Positions 1,491-6,991 of a DNA stretch of 6,991 nt are shown piece by piece (position 1 is the stretch's first letter; each line of letters opens with the position of its first letter). This stretch comes from Gammaproteobacteria bacterium. Its GTDB lineage: Bacteria > Pseudomonadota > Gammaproteobacteria > UBA9214. Location: contig JAOUCV010000114.1 in the NCBI GenBank assembly GCA_029859555.1, positions 1 through 6,991 of the forward strand, read 5' to 3'. The notes under the pieces were generated by a model that was not told the DNA's origin, did no database searches, and was given only the letters and a program-made list of their open reading frames with translations. A program made the translations under genes and the position numbers.

Positions 1491-1569
1491 CAGTGTCATT
1501 TTCATTGCGCCAAGGTACCGTTTTTGCAGCATTTAAACAAGTCGGCAAGGTGAAAACGCAGGCATAAAG

Positions 1570-4500
1570 CTACACGTATTCAACCTGCACACAGCCCTTG
1601 CCCGCCAGGTCGCGCAGGCGGTGCAGCAATTCATCGGTCGGGTGAACCGTCCACTCTTCACCGAGCGCCACCCTGGCGCGGGCATCGCCACCGCTGTAAT
1701 CGATACACACCGGGCAGTGCCCTTCCCTGAACGGCTGCAGTATCTCTGCAAGGTGGCCGACAAACCCGTTACCTGCCTGACTGGACTCAACCCCGACAAC
1801 CACGCGCCGCGCAAACAAACCACGCGCCTGGTTGATGTCATAAATACTCTGCGCGGTCACCTGGTAGCCGCCGGTAAAATCATCCAGCCCGATCCCGCCC
1901 TGCACGACCAGCACCTTGTTCTTGCCGAGCATGGCCTGGTACTTCTCATAGACATCAGGAAACACCCGCACATCCAGCCGTGCGCTGCGGTCATCCAGCG
2001 TCAGGAAGGCAATCTTGCCACCACGCTGTGTCTTGATTACACGCATGCTCATCACCAGTCCGGCAATCGTCACAGGGCGCTCGTCCGCGCCGGGGCGGCC
2101 CTTGCGTTCCTTGTTCTTGTTCTGGCTGGCAGGCGGCGCAGTCGTACACATGGCAGCCAGCTCAGCCAGCTTGCCACTGGTAATGTTGGCAAGCTCGTAT
2201 TCATAACGGGTTATCGGGTGACCGGTCAGGTACAGACCCAGCGCATCCATTTCACCCTGCAGCCGCTGCTCCTCTTCCCACTCCGGCAGCACCTGCTTTT
2301 CTACCGGCAGCGGTGTGGCGGATGTGGCGTCGCCGAACAAATCATTCTGACCGGTATCGAGGTTGCGCGAATGCTGCTCGGCCATCTTCAATGCCTTGTC
2401 GAGATTCGCCAGTTGTGAAGCACGCGTATCGCCCATCGGATCGAGCGCACCGCCACGGATCATGGCATCAAACACACGCCGGTTTACCTTGCGGGTGTCG
2501 ACGCGACGACAGAGATCAAACAGGTCGGCAAAAGCGCCACCTTCATTACGTTCCGCAATCATGCCTTCAATCGCGGCCTGTCCGACACCCTTGATCGCAC
2601 CCAGGCCATAAACGATGGTGTCTGCCTCGGTAGCAGTAAAGTGATATTGCGACTGATTAACGTCCGGCGGCACCACCTTCAGTTTCATGTCGCTGCACTC
2701 GGCAATCAGGTTCACAATCTTGTCAGTGTTGTCCATGTCTGCTGACAATACTGCGGCCATAAAGGCGGCTGGATAATGCGCCTTCAGCCAGGCCGTCTGG
2801 TATGACACCAGCGCATAGGCCGCGGAGTGACTCTTGTTGAAGCCGTAACCGGCAAACTTCTCCATCAGATCAAAGATGCCGGCTGCGACCTTTTCGTCAA
2901 CTTCTCTCTGCAGGGCACCTTCGAGAAAGATGGAACGTTGCTTCGCCATCTCCTCGGGTTTCTTCTTGCCCATGGCGCGCCGCAACATGTCAGCACCACC
3001 CAGCGTGTAGCCAGCCAGCACCTGGGCAATCTGCATCACCTGTTCCTGGTACAGGATGATGCCGTAGGTCGGCTTCAGTATCGGTTCCAGATCAGGGTGC
3101 GGGTACTTGATTTCAGCACCGTGTTTACGCGCGATAAAATCGTCCACCATGCCGGACTGTAACGGCCCGGGACGAAACAGCGCCACCAGTGCGACGATAT
3201 CCTCAAAGGTATCCGGGCGCAGCCGCCGGATCAGGTCCTTCATGCCGCTTGATTCCAGCTGGAACACAGCCGTGGTTGCAGATGACTTCAACAGCTCAAA
3301 GGCTGCCCTGTCGACCAGCGGAATGGTTTCGATATCGACCAGCGGTTTGTCGCTCTCCGCGAGCCGGGCATTGATGGTCTTCAGCGCCCAGTCAATAATG
3401 GTTAGTGTGCGCAGACCGAGGAAGTCAAACTTTACCAGTCCGACCGCTTCGACGTCATCCTTGTCAAACTGGCTTACCAGTGCCCCACCACCCTGCTCGC
3501 AGTACAGTGGCGTGAAGTCGGTCAGTTGCGAAGGTGCGATAACAACACCACCGGCATGCTTGCCGGCATTTCTTGCCAGGCCTTCCAGTGAGCGCGCCAG
3601 GTCAACCAGCGTCCGCACATCTTCATCGGCATCATACAGTTCGCTGAAGGCCGGCTCCTGTTCCAGCGTCTTATCAAGTGTTATTCCGATTTCAAACGGA
3701 ATCAGTTTTGCGATTCTGTCGACAAAGCCGTAGGGATGACCAAGCACACGGCCGACATCGCGAACCACTGCCTTCGCCGCCATGGAACCATAGGTAATAA
3801 TCTGGGAAACCTTGTCACGCCCGTAAGTCTCGGCAACATAATCAATGACGCGATCACGTCCTTCCATACAGAAGTCGACATCGAAATCCGGCATGGAGAC
3901 ACGTTCCGGATTCAGGAAACGTTCAAACAACAGGTCGTAGCGAATCGGGTCAAGGTCGGTAATCGTCAGGGCATAGGCCACCAGCGAGCCCGCACCGGAA
4001 CCACGTCCTGGACCGACGGGAATACCGTTTTTCTTGGCCCAGATAATAAAATCGGCAACAATAAGAAAGTAACCGGGGAAACCCATATCCAGGATGACCT
4101 TGATTTCGTGTTCAAGCCGGTCATGGTATAACTGCCGCTGTGCCTCAATATCCGCACTGTCCGGATCAAGAATCTGCTGCAAACGATTTTCCAGTCCCTG
4201 TTCGGCCTGCATCTTGAAATAACCGGCCATATCCATACCTTCCGGTACCGGAAAGTCAGGCAGGTAATTTTTACCCAGTTCAAGTTCCAGGTTACAGCGG
4301 CGCGCGATCTCGACAGTATTTTCCAGTGCCTCGGGAATATCACTAAACAACTCCCGCATTTCATCGGCAGAACGCAAATACTGTTGCTCGGTAAATTCCT
4401 TGCTGCGACGCGGATCATCCAGTGTACGGCCTTCGTTGATACAGACACGCGCCTCATGCGCATCGAAATCCCCGGCACGCAGGAAATGCACATCGTTGCT

Positions 4501-5091
4501 GGCCACCACCGGTACACCCTTCTGTTCAGCGAGATGAATTGCCTTGTGAAGGTAGCTCTCTTCACCTGTCCGGCCGGTACGTTGCAGTTCCAGGTAAAAA
4601 CTGTCAGGAAATATCTGTAACCACTCATCGAGGCGCTCGGCCGCCAGCGCATGCTTGTTAGCGAGCAGTGCCTGCCCGACATCGCCGGCACGTCCGCCGG
4701 ACAATGCAATCAAACCATCCGCATGCCCCTCGAACCAGTCCCGCTCCAGCACCGGTATGCCACGCTGCTGTCCTTCGGTGTAGGAGCGTGACACCAGCCG
4801 GGTAAGATTCAGATAGCCATGATTGGTTTTACAAAGTAATACCAGCCGTGTCGGCGGTTTGCCGCCGAGCCGGTCTGCCACCCAGACATCCACGCCGACA
4901 ATGGGCTTGATCCCCTGCGCCATGGCGGCACGATAGAACTTCACCATGGAAAACATGTTGCATTGGTCGGTGACCGCCACTGCCGGCATGCCTGCCGCGG
5001 CAACGCATTTGACCAGCGGTTTGACCCGCACAGTGCCGTTCACCAGCGAATATTCGGTGTGCACGTGCAGATGTACGAAGGCAGGTTGCAT
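1570..5091 (-). CDS. dnaE: DNA polymerase III alpha subunit (replicative polymerase)
   Basis: This is the catalytic subunit of the replicative polymerase, a C-family polymerase that works with epsilon and theta in the core and with the beta clamp and tau at the fork. The product has 1173 residues (E. coli 1160). Order: PHP domain from HLHVH (7-11) to about 280; palm with GPGRGSGAGSLVAY (360-373) and PDFDVDF (401-407), where D402 and D404 correspond to E. coli D401 and D403; third catalytic Asp D556 in KFDFLGLRTL; fingers with YGIILYQEQVMQIAQ (676-690), MGKKKPEEMAKQRS (707-720) and GFNKSHSAAYALVSYQ (750-765); helix-hairpin-helix near 828-845; internal clamp-binding motif QNDLF (915-919, E. coli QADMF); OB fold about 1006-1090; C-terminal tau-binding region. 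It is the DnaE1 type, with no exonuclease insertion (not PolC). The ATG at 5089-5091 matches family N-termini, with GGAA nine bases upstream. A Lys/Arg-rich linker near 982-1005 accounts for much of the extra length. Confidence 0.98.
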   Translation of the reverse strand: MQPAFVHLHVHTEYSLVNGTVRVKPLVKCVAAAGMPAVAVTDQCNMFSMVKFYRAAMAQGIKPIVGVDVWVADRLGGKPPTRLVLLCKTNHGYLNLTRLVSRSYTEGQQRGIPVLERDWFEGHADGLIALSGGRAGDVGQALLANKHALAAERLDEWLQIFPDSFYLELQRTGRTGEESYLHKAIHLAEQKGVPVVASNDVHFLRAGDFDAHEARVCINEGRTLDDPRRSKEFTEQQYLRSADEMRELFSDIPEALENTVEIARRCNLELELGKNYLPDFPVPEGMDMAGYFKMQAEQGLENRLQQILDPDSADIEAQRQLYHDRLEHEIKVILDMGFPGYFLIVADFIIWAKKNGIPVGPGRGSGAGSLVAYALTITDLDPIRYDLLFERFLNPERVSMPDFDVDFCMEGRDRVIDYVAETYGRDKVSQIITYGSMAAKAVVRDVGRVLGHPYGFVDRIAKLIPFEIGITLDKTLEQEPAFSELYDADEDVRTLVDLARSLEGLARNAGKHAGGVVIAPSQLTDFTPLYCEQGGGALVSQFDKDDVEAVGLVKFDFLGLRTLTIIDWALKTINARLAESDKPLVDIETIPLVDRAAFELLKSSATTAVFQLESSGMKDLIRRLRPDTFEDIVALVALFRPGPLQSGMVDDFIARKHGAEIKYPHPDLEPILKPTYGIILYQEQVMQIAQVLAGYTLGGADMLRRAMGKKKPEEMAKQRSIFLEGALQREVDEKVAAGIFDLMEKFAGYGFNKSHSAAYALVSYQTAWLKAHYPAAFMAAVLSADMDNTDKIVNLIAECSDMKLKVVPPDVNQSQYHFTATEADTIVYGLGAIKGVGQAAIEGMIAERNEGGAFADLFDLCRRVDTRKVNRRVFDAMIRGGALDPMGDTRASQLANLDKALKMAEQHSRNLDTGQNDLFGDATSATPLPVEKQVLPEWEEEQRLQGEMDALGLYLTGHPITRYEYELANITSGKLAELAAMCTTAPPASQNKNKERKGRPGADERPVTIAGLVMSMRVIKTQRGGKIAFLTLDDRSARLDVRVFPDVYEKYQAMLGKNKVLVVQGGIGLDDFTGGYQVTAQSIYDINQARGLFARRVVVGVESSQAGNGFVGHLAEILQPFREGHCPVCIDYSGGDARARVALGEEWTVHPTDELLHRLRDLAGKGCVQVEYV

Positions 5092-5378: not shown

Positions 5379-6467
5379 ATGCTGCGAGTTAACAACAATC
5401 CGGTCACATCGTCCTATGAGAAAGAAGAGCTGAAAGGCTTCTCGCGGAGCATGGCGGAATTGCAGTGGTTGCTACTGATTCTTGTCATCCTGTACTTTTT
5501 TATACCCATTCGGCCCATCGACAACCATGACGGACTGATACTCACCATGGTGTGCTACTCGGGATTCGTGCTGCTGTTTCGGTATCTCAACTTCCAGGCG
5601 CGCGAGTCGCGCATGAAGCTGGCAATGGAAACCTGGGCGATGGTGAGTTTTATCACCATTGTTCTGTGGTATACCGGCAAGGTCGACAGCCCGTTATTAA
5701 ACCTCTATCTGCTGGTCATCATCGCCTGCGCCATAACGCTGGGCAAGATCATGACACTGCTTGAAGTCGGCCTGATTGCCTGCTGTTACCTGTACATGGG
5801 CTATAGCACACATTCCGAGGCATTGTTCGCACCACAAACGTTTACTGCACTGATGGCAAAGTTCTCGCCATTCCTGCTGGTGGCGTATGTAACCTCCATG
5901 CTCGCCGCAGATATCCTGCAGGCCAAGAAGCGTATTACCCTGTTGTCACAAACAGATGACCTGACCGGCTTACTGAACATGCGTGCCTTCAATCAGGTGC
6001 TCGACAAGGAAATCGCCCGGGCAGCGCGTTATGCACAGCAATTCACCGTAATCATGATTGATGTTGACGGACTCAAGAATATCAACGACCAGCACGGTCA
6101 TACAGCCGGCAGCCGACTGATCAGGATCATCGCACAGTCAATCAAGGAGTGCGTCAGAACATCTGACGTGCTGGCCCGCTATGGCGGTGACGAGTTTGTC
6201 ATTATGATGGCGCATACCAGTACCGAGCATGCACGTACGGCTGCCGAGCGTATCCGTACAGCCGTCAACAACTCTTCATTTGACATGAAAGGGATGCGCA
6301 TCGCGAGCACGGTGAGCGTCGGTATCGCCAGTTTCCCTGAATGCGTGGAAGATGCAGCCGAGGTTCTCGACAAGGCAGATATTGCGCTCTACCAGAGCAA
6401 ACAGGATGGCCGTAACAAGGTCACCTACTACGACAAGGCAATGGAGAATATTGCGATCTACGCCTGA
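5379..6467 (+). CDS. membrane GGDEF-domain cyclic dinucleotide synthase; candidate Hypr (cGAMP-type) enzyme
   Basis: The 362-residue protein has six predicted membrane helices (about 27-44, 52-69, 85-99, 104-121, 123-142, 156-177) with Arg/Lys-rich inner loops, placing both termini in the cytoplasm. A short helix (178-190) leads to the GGDEF domain (191-352). Seen there: DDLTGLLN (193-200), metal-binding DVD (228-230), N236 (PleD N335), GGDEF itself (269-273), RTSD (260-263) five residues before it as a classical inhibitory I-site, and K341 and R345 of the SKxxGRN block. GGDEF enzymes normally dimerise and condense two GTP into c-di-GMP. Here the second guanine-recognising residue, PleD D344, is S245 (GHTAGS), the substitution known from Hypr enzymes that make 3',3'-cGAMP. 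Activity looks intact; product identity is inferred. The sensor is not one I can name, and no EAL domain is present. The gene is divergent from dnaE and overlaps rnhB tail to tail. Confidence 0.9.
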
Positions 6468-6991
6468 GGCAATCCTGCCTGTCTTTCCATCACCCTTCTG
6501 ACCGGCGCATAACTCCGCCGGTGAATCGGCGTCACACCCAGATTCTCCAGCGCCTCGATATGTGCCTTGCTTGGATATCCCTTGTGCCGGGCCAGGCCGT
6601 AGCCGGGATACTGCAGGTCCAGTGACAACATCTCGCGATCACGCGTAACCTTGGCCATTATTGATGCGGCACTGATAGCCGCCACACGACTGTCACCCTT
6701 GACGATTGCCTGTGCCGGGCAAGCAAGTAGCGGACAACGATTACCGTCGATCAGCGCATGTTGCGCCGTCGGCTGCAAGGCCTCCACGGCACGCTGCATT
6801 GCCAGCATGGTTGCCTGCAGGATATTAATGCGGTCAATTTCCCCGACATCAGCAGAAGCAACAGCCCAGGCGAGTGCCTTTTCCTGAATTTCCTCGTACA
6901 GCAGTTCCCGCCGCGCGGCAGTCAAACGCTTTGAATCCTGCAAGCCCTCGATCGGCCTGTATGGATCAAGGATGACCGCACCGGCGACCAC
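6458..6991 (-). CDS. rnhB: ribonuclease HII, C-terminal part (N-terminus beyond right edge)
   Basis: RNase HII cuts the RNA strand of RNA-DNA hybrids and nicks 5' of single ribonucleotides embedded in duplex DNA, starting ribonucleotide excision repair. The visible 177 residues align with E. coli RnhB from the AVILDP strand to the end: [19 protein letters not shown] (17-35), [17 protein letters not shown] (56-72), IDGNRCP (81-87), [22 protein letters not shown] (97-118, with key acidic residues at 82 and 100, 18 apart as in the family), [15 protein letters not shown] (130-144) and the C-terminal HRRSYAPV (157-164). The first two residues of the DEDD active site (the DEVGRG motif) lie beyond the edge, so the window does not contain the start; the GTG at 6989-6991 is an internal valine. 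The TAG stop at 6458-6460 lies inside the GGDEF gene. rnhB normally directly precedes dnaE in this class. Confidence 0.97.
6467..6480 (+). terminator. short hairpin after the GGDEF stop codon
   Basis: AGGCA (6467-6471) pairs perfectly with TGCCT (6476-6480) around the 4-base loop ATCC, starting at the last base of the TGA stop and followed by GTCTTTCC. The 5-bp stem and broken T tract make it a weak terminator candidate. It lies inside the 3' coding part of rnhB, so it may simply be codon sequence. No alternative terminator for the plus-strand gene is visible nearby. Confidence 0.25.

Follow-up and report, generated by a model that had tools for sequence, protein, structure and literature searches.

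A predicted Hypr-type GGDEF enzyme with a six-helix membrane domain in an order of Gammaproteobacteria

Hypr enzymes make up 0.17% of GGDEF domains (PMC9140294) and are defined, in passages of PMC6456294 and PMC9140294, by residue and product and not by descent: Ser or Thr replaces the guanine-reading Asp (D344 of PleD), and ATP and GTP are joined into the mixed messenger 3',3'-cyclic GMP-AMP (cGAMP), with a shift to cyclic di-GMP (c-di-GMP) when that Ser is changed to Asp. Bd0367 of Bdellovibrio bacteriovorus makes mainly cGAMP, with cyclic di-AMP (c-di-AMP) as a minor product (PMC9140294). In GacA of Geobacter the base is bonded by Ser348 on its Watson-Crick face and by Asn339 on its sugar face (PMC6456294). 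GacA with Ser plus a GGEEF loop is inactive, and natural Ser/Thr-type enzymes were reported exclusively with GGDE[F/Y] (PMC6456294), a rule to which a later paper adds an exception, GSU1937, with Ser and GGDDF (PMC8835794). Ordinary diguanylate cyclases carry, as a rule, a cross-dimer Arg at the position of GacA Tyr304; it is found in 94% of predicted diguanylate cyclases and pushes the product towards c-di-GMP (PMC6456294). In open-licence papers, including the Hypr passages of the review PMC7288161, we found no Hypr enzyme described from Gammaproteobacteria; the passages of the Salmonella review PMC9275015 concern other matters. Here we describe P0001, a GGDEF protein encoded in a stretch of 6,991 nucleotides (contig JAOUCV010000114.1, assembly GCA_029859555.1; hereafter the window) from a gammaproteobacterium of the GTDB order UBA9214.

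We consider it rather probable that P0001 is a new, separately evolved enzyme of the Hypr type, as predicted from its residues; its likely activity is to combine ATP and GTP into cGAMP, instead of forming c-di-GMP only. The names dnaE, rnhB, accA and tilS, used below for genes at the window locus, are ones that we take to apply from general knowledge of such sequences.

The nucleotide pocket of P0001

The phmmer alignment of P0001 with GmGacA (6d9m) runs without gaps across the pocket, and the spacings are identical in the two proteins: 35, 9 and 26 for Tyr304-Asn339-Ser348-Asp374 in GmGacA and for Met201-Asn236-Ser245-Asp271 in P0001, which points to Asn236 and Ser245 as the base-contacting pair. 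A sequence-only reading of the window had placed Ser245 at PleD D344 and had called for alignment with a characterised Hypr enzyme. That alignment bears out the placement: Ser245 is in register with GmGacA Ser348, and residues 228-245 read as had been given, the pocket stretch ending at Ser245. The direct residue alignment was to GmGacA, and the equivalence with PleD comes through the published correspondence of PleD D344 with Bd0367 S214 (PMC9140294).

P0001 has Ser in place of the guanine-reading Asp, its loop is GGDEF (with Asp271) and not GGEEF, and the cross-dimer Arg is replaced, here by Met201, as in the Hypr enzymes that make mainly cGAMP; the Asp and Arg of a canonical diguanylate cyclase are both missing. 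By alignment it carries the Bd0367 combination, Ser and Met with a GGDEF loop. The significance of Met201 and of GGDEF versus GGEEF adds to the first observation, which concerned Ser245, the intact loop and the catalytic set. The proposal made from it, that of a candidate Hypr cGAMP synthase able to use both ATP and GTP, is supported by Ser245, the GGDEF loop and Met201, and remains a prediction from sequence.

In the mechanism that we propose, the six-helix membrane domain would sense a signal and set the dimer. Where Asp would require guanine, Ser245 would form a hydrogen bond with either purine at its Watson-Crick edge, and Met201 of the partner subunit would pack over the base but make no cation-pi contact, the interaction by which Arg favours guanine. 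Asp271 would hold magnesium and Glu272 would activate the 3'-OH across the dimer; their equivalents are described as a magnesium ligand and a presumed general base (PMC6456294). Binding of c-di-GMP at R260/D263 would damp P0001, as it does GacA, so that the ordinary cellular c-di-GMP network could gate cGAMP.

Conservation of the pocket and its origin in a membrane family

Among P0001 and the best 120 of its 6,324 matches, position 245 is Ser in 115 of 121 proteins, Asn in four, Thr in two and Asp in none, while position 201 is Met in 118 and Leu in three; Asp271, Arg260 and Asp263 are kept in 121/121. The order of the window was sampled with 23 genomes from one family and five genera. The gene is present in 22 of them, one copy being cut by a contig end, and was not found in the remaining genome, G030, which is 89% complete. 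All 21 full-length copies lack Asp at position 245 (Ser 17, Asn 3, Thr 1) and have Met (20) or Leu (1) at position 201. Of the 17 Ser codons, 15 are AGC and two AGT, both one base away from codons for Asn and Thr and two from those for Asp. In a 21-member alignment D228, D271, E272, the inhibitory-site residues R260 and D263, and the K341/R345 pair are invariant, in agreement with the earlier statement that the loop, the metal ligands and this pair are intact and the domain is not decayed.

That reading had also named free drift of Ser with Asp, Asn or Gly as an outcome that would speak against it. On a clade tree of 138 rows the drift is real in part: Asn occurs at position 245 in seven rows, together with Thr in three, and Asp and Gly are absent, which rules out free exchange of Ser with Asp. 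Position 245 needs at least 6 changes on this tree, where 69 of 161 GGDEF positions need equal or fewer and the median is 10. D228, K233, N236, D271, E272, R260 and D263 show no change, and the neighbouring positions 242 and 243 show 28 and 29, so that site 245 is limited to Ser, Asn and Thr yet not frozen. Judged from these sequences, Ser245 is not chance drift. The case is stronger than first written, since the loop and the cross-dimer residue fit, the pocket is kept across the order and the gene stands in one chromosomal place wherever this was checked.

None of the 13 other GGDEF matches in the genome of the window has Ser at this position; 11 have Asp (among them L012, whose loop is ruined), L014 has Asn, and L013 has Glu both here and at the other specificity position. 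The loops of these three are GDCSF and GTARF in two cases, and the third has no recognisable loop.

We searched 369 evenly drawn genomes of Gammaproteobacteria with the first 204 residues of P0001 (E <= 1e-12), and found the membrane domain in 12, four of them from the window's order. In the eight non-order genomes, positions 201/245 are Arg/Asp (L077, L078, L082), Lys/Asp (L075), Met/Asp (L079, L080, L081) and Met/Asn (L076, the protein P0131 of Halofilum ochraceum, Ectothiorhodospiraceae; we found nothing on Halofilum together with GGDEF in the open-licence literature). By tblastn (E 1e-10), the 5.7-10.5 kb around each of these eight genes contain no match to dnaE, accA, tilS or rnhB. The best 120 of 4,393 from a profile search on relatives of this kind, pooled with all other rows, made up 268 proteins with 264 distinct sequences, a set whose counts are inflated by shared descent. 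Position 245 is Ser in 129 rows, Asp in 72, Asn in 60 and Thr in three. Position 201 is hydrophobic in all 132 Ser/Thr rows and in 59 of the 60 Asn rows, and the 72 Asp rows have Lys or Arg there in 55 cases and a hydrophobic residue in 17. A quick tree of 70 rows, thinned from the 264 and built with columns 201 and 245 left out, requires 6 changes of the Asp label and 4 of the cationic label, and its starred branches carry three independent pairs. The sampled order members fall in a clade of 19 rows (16 Ser/Thr, 3 Asn) set off by a branch with support 90, or 100 without L030. Asn at the guanine-reading position, which is found also in P0209, L066 and L067, is nearly always accompanied by a hydrophobic residue at 201; among open-licence papers we found no published assay of the product of such Asn-form (D344N-like) enzymes.

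Since the relatives in other orders share the membrane domain and are of the Arg/Asp, Lys/Asp, Met/Asp and Met/Asn types, the Hypr-like pocket probably arose within this membrane family, apart from GacA, as far as the sequences indicate. A 55-row tree of GGDEF domains, in which several long branches meet and whose bootstrap had yet to settle fully, separates the family from GmGacA with support 98/97. Forcing GmGacA and the sampled Ser/Thr members into one clade costs 17.7 log units (approximately unbiased, AU, test, p 0.164). A separate origin is the better reading, short of proof, given the domain tree and the membrane domain common to Asp and Ser members. We think horizontal arrival from Geobacter improbable: whether judged by the membrane domain or by the GGDEF domain, the closest relatives belong to other Gammaproteobacteria and are of the Asp and Asn types. 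The AU test alone gives no rejection.

A broader proposal is offered only tentatively. The whole gammaproteobacterial membrane GGDEF family may have left guanine specificity independently, along a path from Arg/Lys with Asp through Met with Asp and Met with Asn to Met with Ser that would be preserved in the relatives; cGAMP (an adenine-rich dinucleotide for the Asn forms) would then be a housekeeping signal made beside dnaE throughout the order, with no known riboswitch, and the Asn forms would be a further, undescribed specificity class. From its mutants, the GacA study proposed that the GGDEF loop came first and that the cross-dimer Arg and the Asp were then lost in either order (PMC6456294). 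Because the family supplies natural intermediates, that path can be tested with real proteins, and this natural series from Asp to Asn and Ser within one membrane family is what would be new beyond one more Hypr member.

The product and its signalling context

The c-di-GMP-I (GEMM-I) riboswitch RF01051 was found over the cut-off in none of the 23 order genomes, where three weak matches reached 19-22 bits; with stricter filters it turned up in 3 of 57 genomes, all outside the window's order, showing that the search can detect it in Gammaproteobacteria. The window itself holds no riboswitch over threshold, and its one match (13.6 bits, to an unrelated family) is due to chance. Riboswitch read-out was set aside, with no match over threshold in order genomes or window, and the receptor is probably a protein.

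DAC enzymes were found over the cut-off in 0/23 order genomes (the control was positive in 11/14 genomes) and SMODS synthases likewise in 0/23 (control positive in 3/14), absences that are soft because many of these genomes are incomplete. They leave the P0001 gene as the only candidate source of an adenine-containing cyclic dinucleotide in the order among the families searched, DAC and SMODS, other CD-NTase families not having been searched. The genome of the window has one weak DAC-like match (G000:C78:786-1049), which at 21.5 bits lies below the cut-off and contains an internal stop. HD-GYP proteins (PF13487), many in open frames of 350-400 residues, occur in 20 of the 23 order genomes (for example L094-L099) and could be cGAMP hydrolases.

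Several points weigh against the reading of P0001 as a separately evolved Hypr-type enzyme that makes cGAMP. Within the clade, position 245 has passed repeatedly between Ser, Asn and Thr. The 17 Asp rows with a hydrophobic residue at 201 blur its pairing with position 245, which moreover rests on few independent events, three pairs being too few for a test. The gene is solitary: with dnaE divergent on one side and rnhB convergent on the other, we found no operon partner, and these conserved neighbours include no receptor or phosphodiesterase. The riboswitch is missing over threshold from the order although three other Gammaproteobacteria have it, and the fold match says nothing of the product. 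Finally, two Hypr enzymes with a cross-dimer Arg make more c-di-GMP (PMC6456294), so the product ratio depends on more than Ser.

The last point leads to the alternative that survives best, which we nevertheless regard as unlikely, namely that P0001 is in effect a diguanylate cyclase: GTP being abundant and Ser still bonding guanine, c-di-GMP would be the product, and a residue other than Asp at 245 would be tolerated through other contacts. Hypr enzymes do make c-di-GMP as well, the genome has a full c-di-GMP network (14 GGDEF matches, P0001 included, and 11 EAL matches), and both the interchange at position 245 and the missing riboswitch would suit such an enzyme. It would be harder to explain why Asp is absent from all 138 clade rows although the Asn codons (AAY) are one base from those for Asp (GAY), or why Arg and Lys are absent from position 201 in 191 of the 192 rows without Asp; and Bd0367, with the identical Ser/Met pair, is the enzyme that yields mainly cGAMP (PMC9140294).

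That same enzyme counts against a second, quite improbable alternative, in which P0001 would prefer adenine at both half-sites or be biased towards it and would make c-di-AMP, or a mixture of c-di-AMP and cGAMP, a tendency that would be greater in the Asn245 homologues, Asn being a natural partner of adenine: in Bd0367 c-di-AMP is a minor product only (PMC9140294). The lack of Arg201 would agree with an adenine preference, as would an argument from chemistry, which is no observed result, that adenine can be accommodated by each of Asn, Ser and Thr. No DAC was found over the cut-off in the order, so that a source of c-di-AMP is otherwise missing, but bacteria without DAC may simply be without c-di-AMP.

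That P0001 is decayed, or purely regulatory and binding nucleotide without catalysis, is very improbable, for although its specificity residue is altered and some degenerate GGDEF domains are nucleotide sensors (PMC12943098), its catalytic and inhibitory residues are unchanged in the clade, the ground on which we reject decay, Asp271 is kept in 264/264 rows, and the ruined domains of the same genome look different.

If the preferred reading, a separately evolved cGAMP synthase, is right, GGDEF-made mixed cyclic dinucleotide signalling arose at least one more time, in Gammaproteobacteria, and a mixed-dinucleotide enzyme has been kept throughout an order in which no DAC or SMODS was found. Family members are named in the sources 'diguanylate cyclase (GGDEF)-like protein', 'GGDEF domain-containing protein' or similar, names which may then misdirect c-di-GMP work in these lineages.

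The locus, the protein and comparison with known systems

Table 1. Features of the window, in nucleotide positions
Feature	Position	Strand	Basis or remark
dnaE	1570..5091	-	divergent neighbour of P0001; in 15/17 named related loci; marks conserved place, outside pathway
GGDEF protein gene P0001, 362 residues	5379..6467	+	open reading frame; Pfam GGDEF; six predicted membrane helices
N-terminal six-helix domain and signalling helix, residues 8-191, distantly PilS-like	5400..5951	+	AlphaFold2; PF25323 in relatives
Met201 (ATG), cross-dimer position	5979..5981	+	alignment to GmGacA Tyr304; Arg in canonical cyclases
Asn236	6084..6086	+	equivalent of GmGacA Asn339, base contact; Asn in 264/264 rows
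Ser245 (AGC), Hypr selectivity position	6111..6113	+	equivalent of PleD Asp344, GmGacA Ser348, Bd0367 Ser214
RTSD inhibitory site (Arg260, Asp263)	6156..6167	+	sequence; both residues in 264/264 rows
GGDEF loop, residues 269-273	6183..6197	+	sequence; Asp271 in 264/264 rows
rnhB (RNase HII), cut by window end	6458..6991	-	convergent neighbour of P0001

Synteny was looked at in 17 named loci and in the order genomes G016 and G014. In all 14 full-length named loci at 65-95% identity (L052-L065) the gene is flanked by a divergent dnaE and a convergent rnhB, and both genes are also beside it in G016 and G014; L068, cut at a contig end, has dnaE beside it. At L066 and L067 (55% identity, Asn type) neither was found within the 17 and 7 kb examined. 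At the window locus accA and tilS follow beyond dnaE. Titles of 16 of the 17 nearest named relatives are Gammaproteobacteria or Ectothiorhodospiraceae. One locus, L063 (JABDRC010000289.1), is titled Halobacteria archaeon and has the arrangement tilS-accA-dnaE-GGDEF-rnhB at 65-81% identity to the window; the record is mislabelled or contaminated. An open reading frame of 102 residues (1533-1841, minus strand) overlaps the dnaE end in a different reading frame; it seems to be open by chance.

Residues 191-347 of P0001 match Pfam GGDEF with 155.9 bits. The AlphaFold2 model, made with 76 aligned relatives, has a mean predicted local distance difference test score (pLDDT) of 86.5 over the whole model and supersedes an earlier, weak one from 21 near relatives (pLDDT 66.1). 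Its N-terminal helices span residues 8-41, 50-69, 78-99, 105-120, 123-150 and 152-191, the long sixth helix continuing into the GGDEF domain. PF25323 (6TM_PilS) matches P0001 below the Pfam cut-off of 27 (15.1 bits, E 0.019) and 30 of 76 family members at E<=0.01. The structure search of the model weighs mainly the GGDEF part, and we make no claim of fold novelty for the membrane domain.

In the structural re-alignment GacA is the second-best row, tied with ordinary cyclases. PleD, WspR, SadC and 3ign share with P0001 the fold, the catalytic sites and the inhibitory sites. SadC presumably has Asp at the guanine-reading position. Asp is found there in WspR and 3ign, as aligned, and in PleD (PMC9140294), whereas P0001 has Ser. 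GacA (GSU1658, Gmet_1914; 6d9m) has Ser348, Asn339 and Asp374 in the register of P0001. It has Tyr304 and a Rec domain, and a regulon of cGAMP riboswitches belongs to it (PMC6456294, PMC8835794), whereas P0001 has Met201 and a membrane domain and its order shows no riboswitch over threshold. GSU1937, the second Hypr protein of Geobacter sulfurreducens, whose deletion lowered a cGAMP reporter, is like P0001 a membrane-anchored Ser-type GGDEF protein; its loop is GGDDF and its transmembrane part has HAMP domains (PMC8835794), in contrast to the GGDEF loop and six-helix domain of P0001. Bd0367, compared by its description, is like P0001 in its selectivity Ser, cross-dimer Met, GGDEF loop and inhibitory site (PMC9140294); P0001 is set apart from it by six predicted membrane helices and by named relatives that are gammaproteobacterial.
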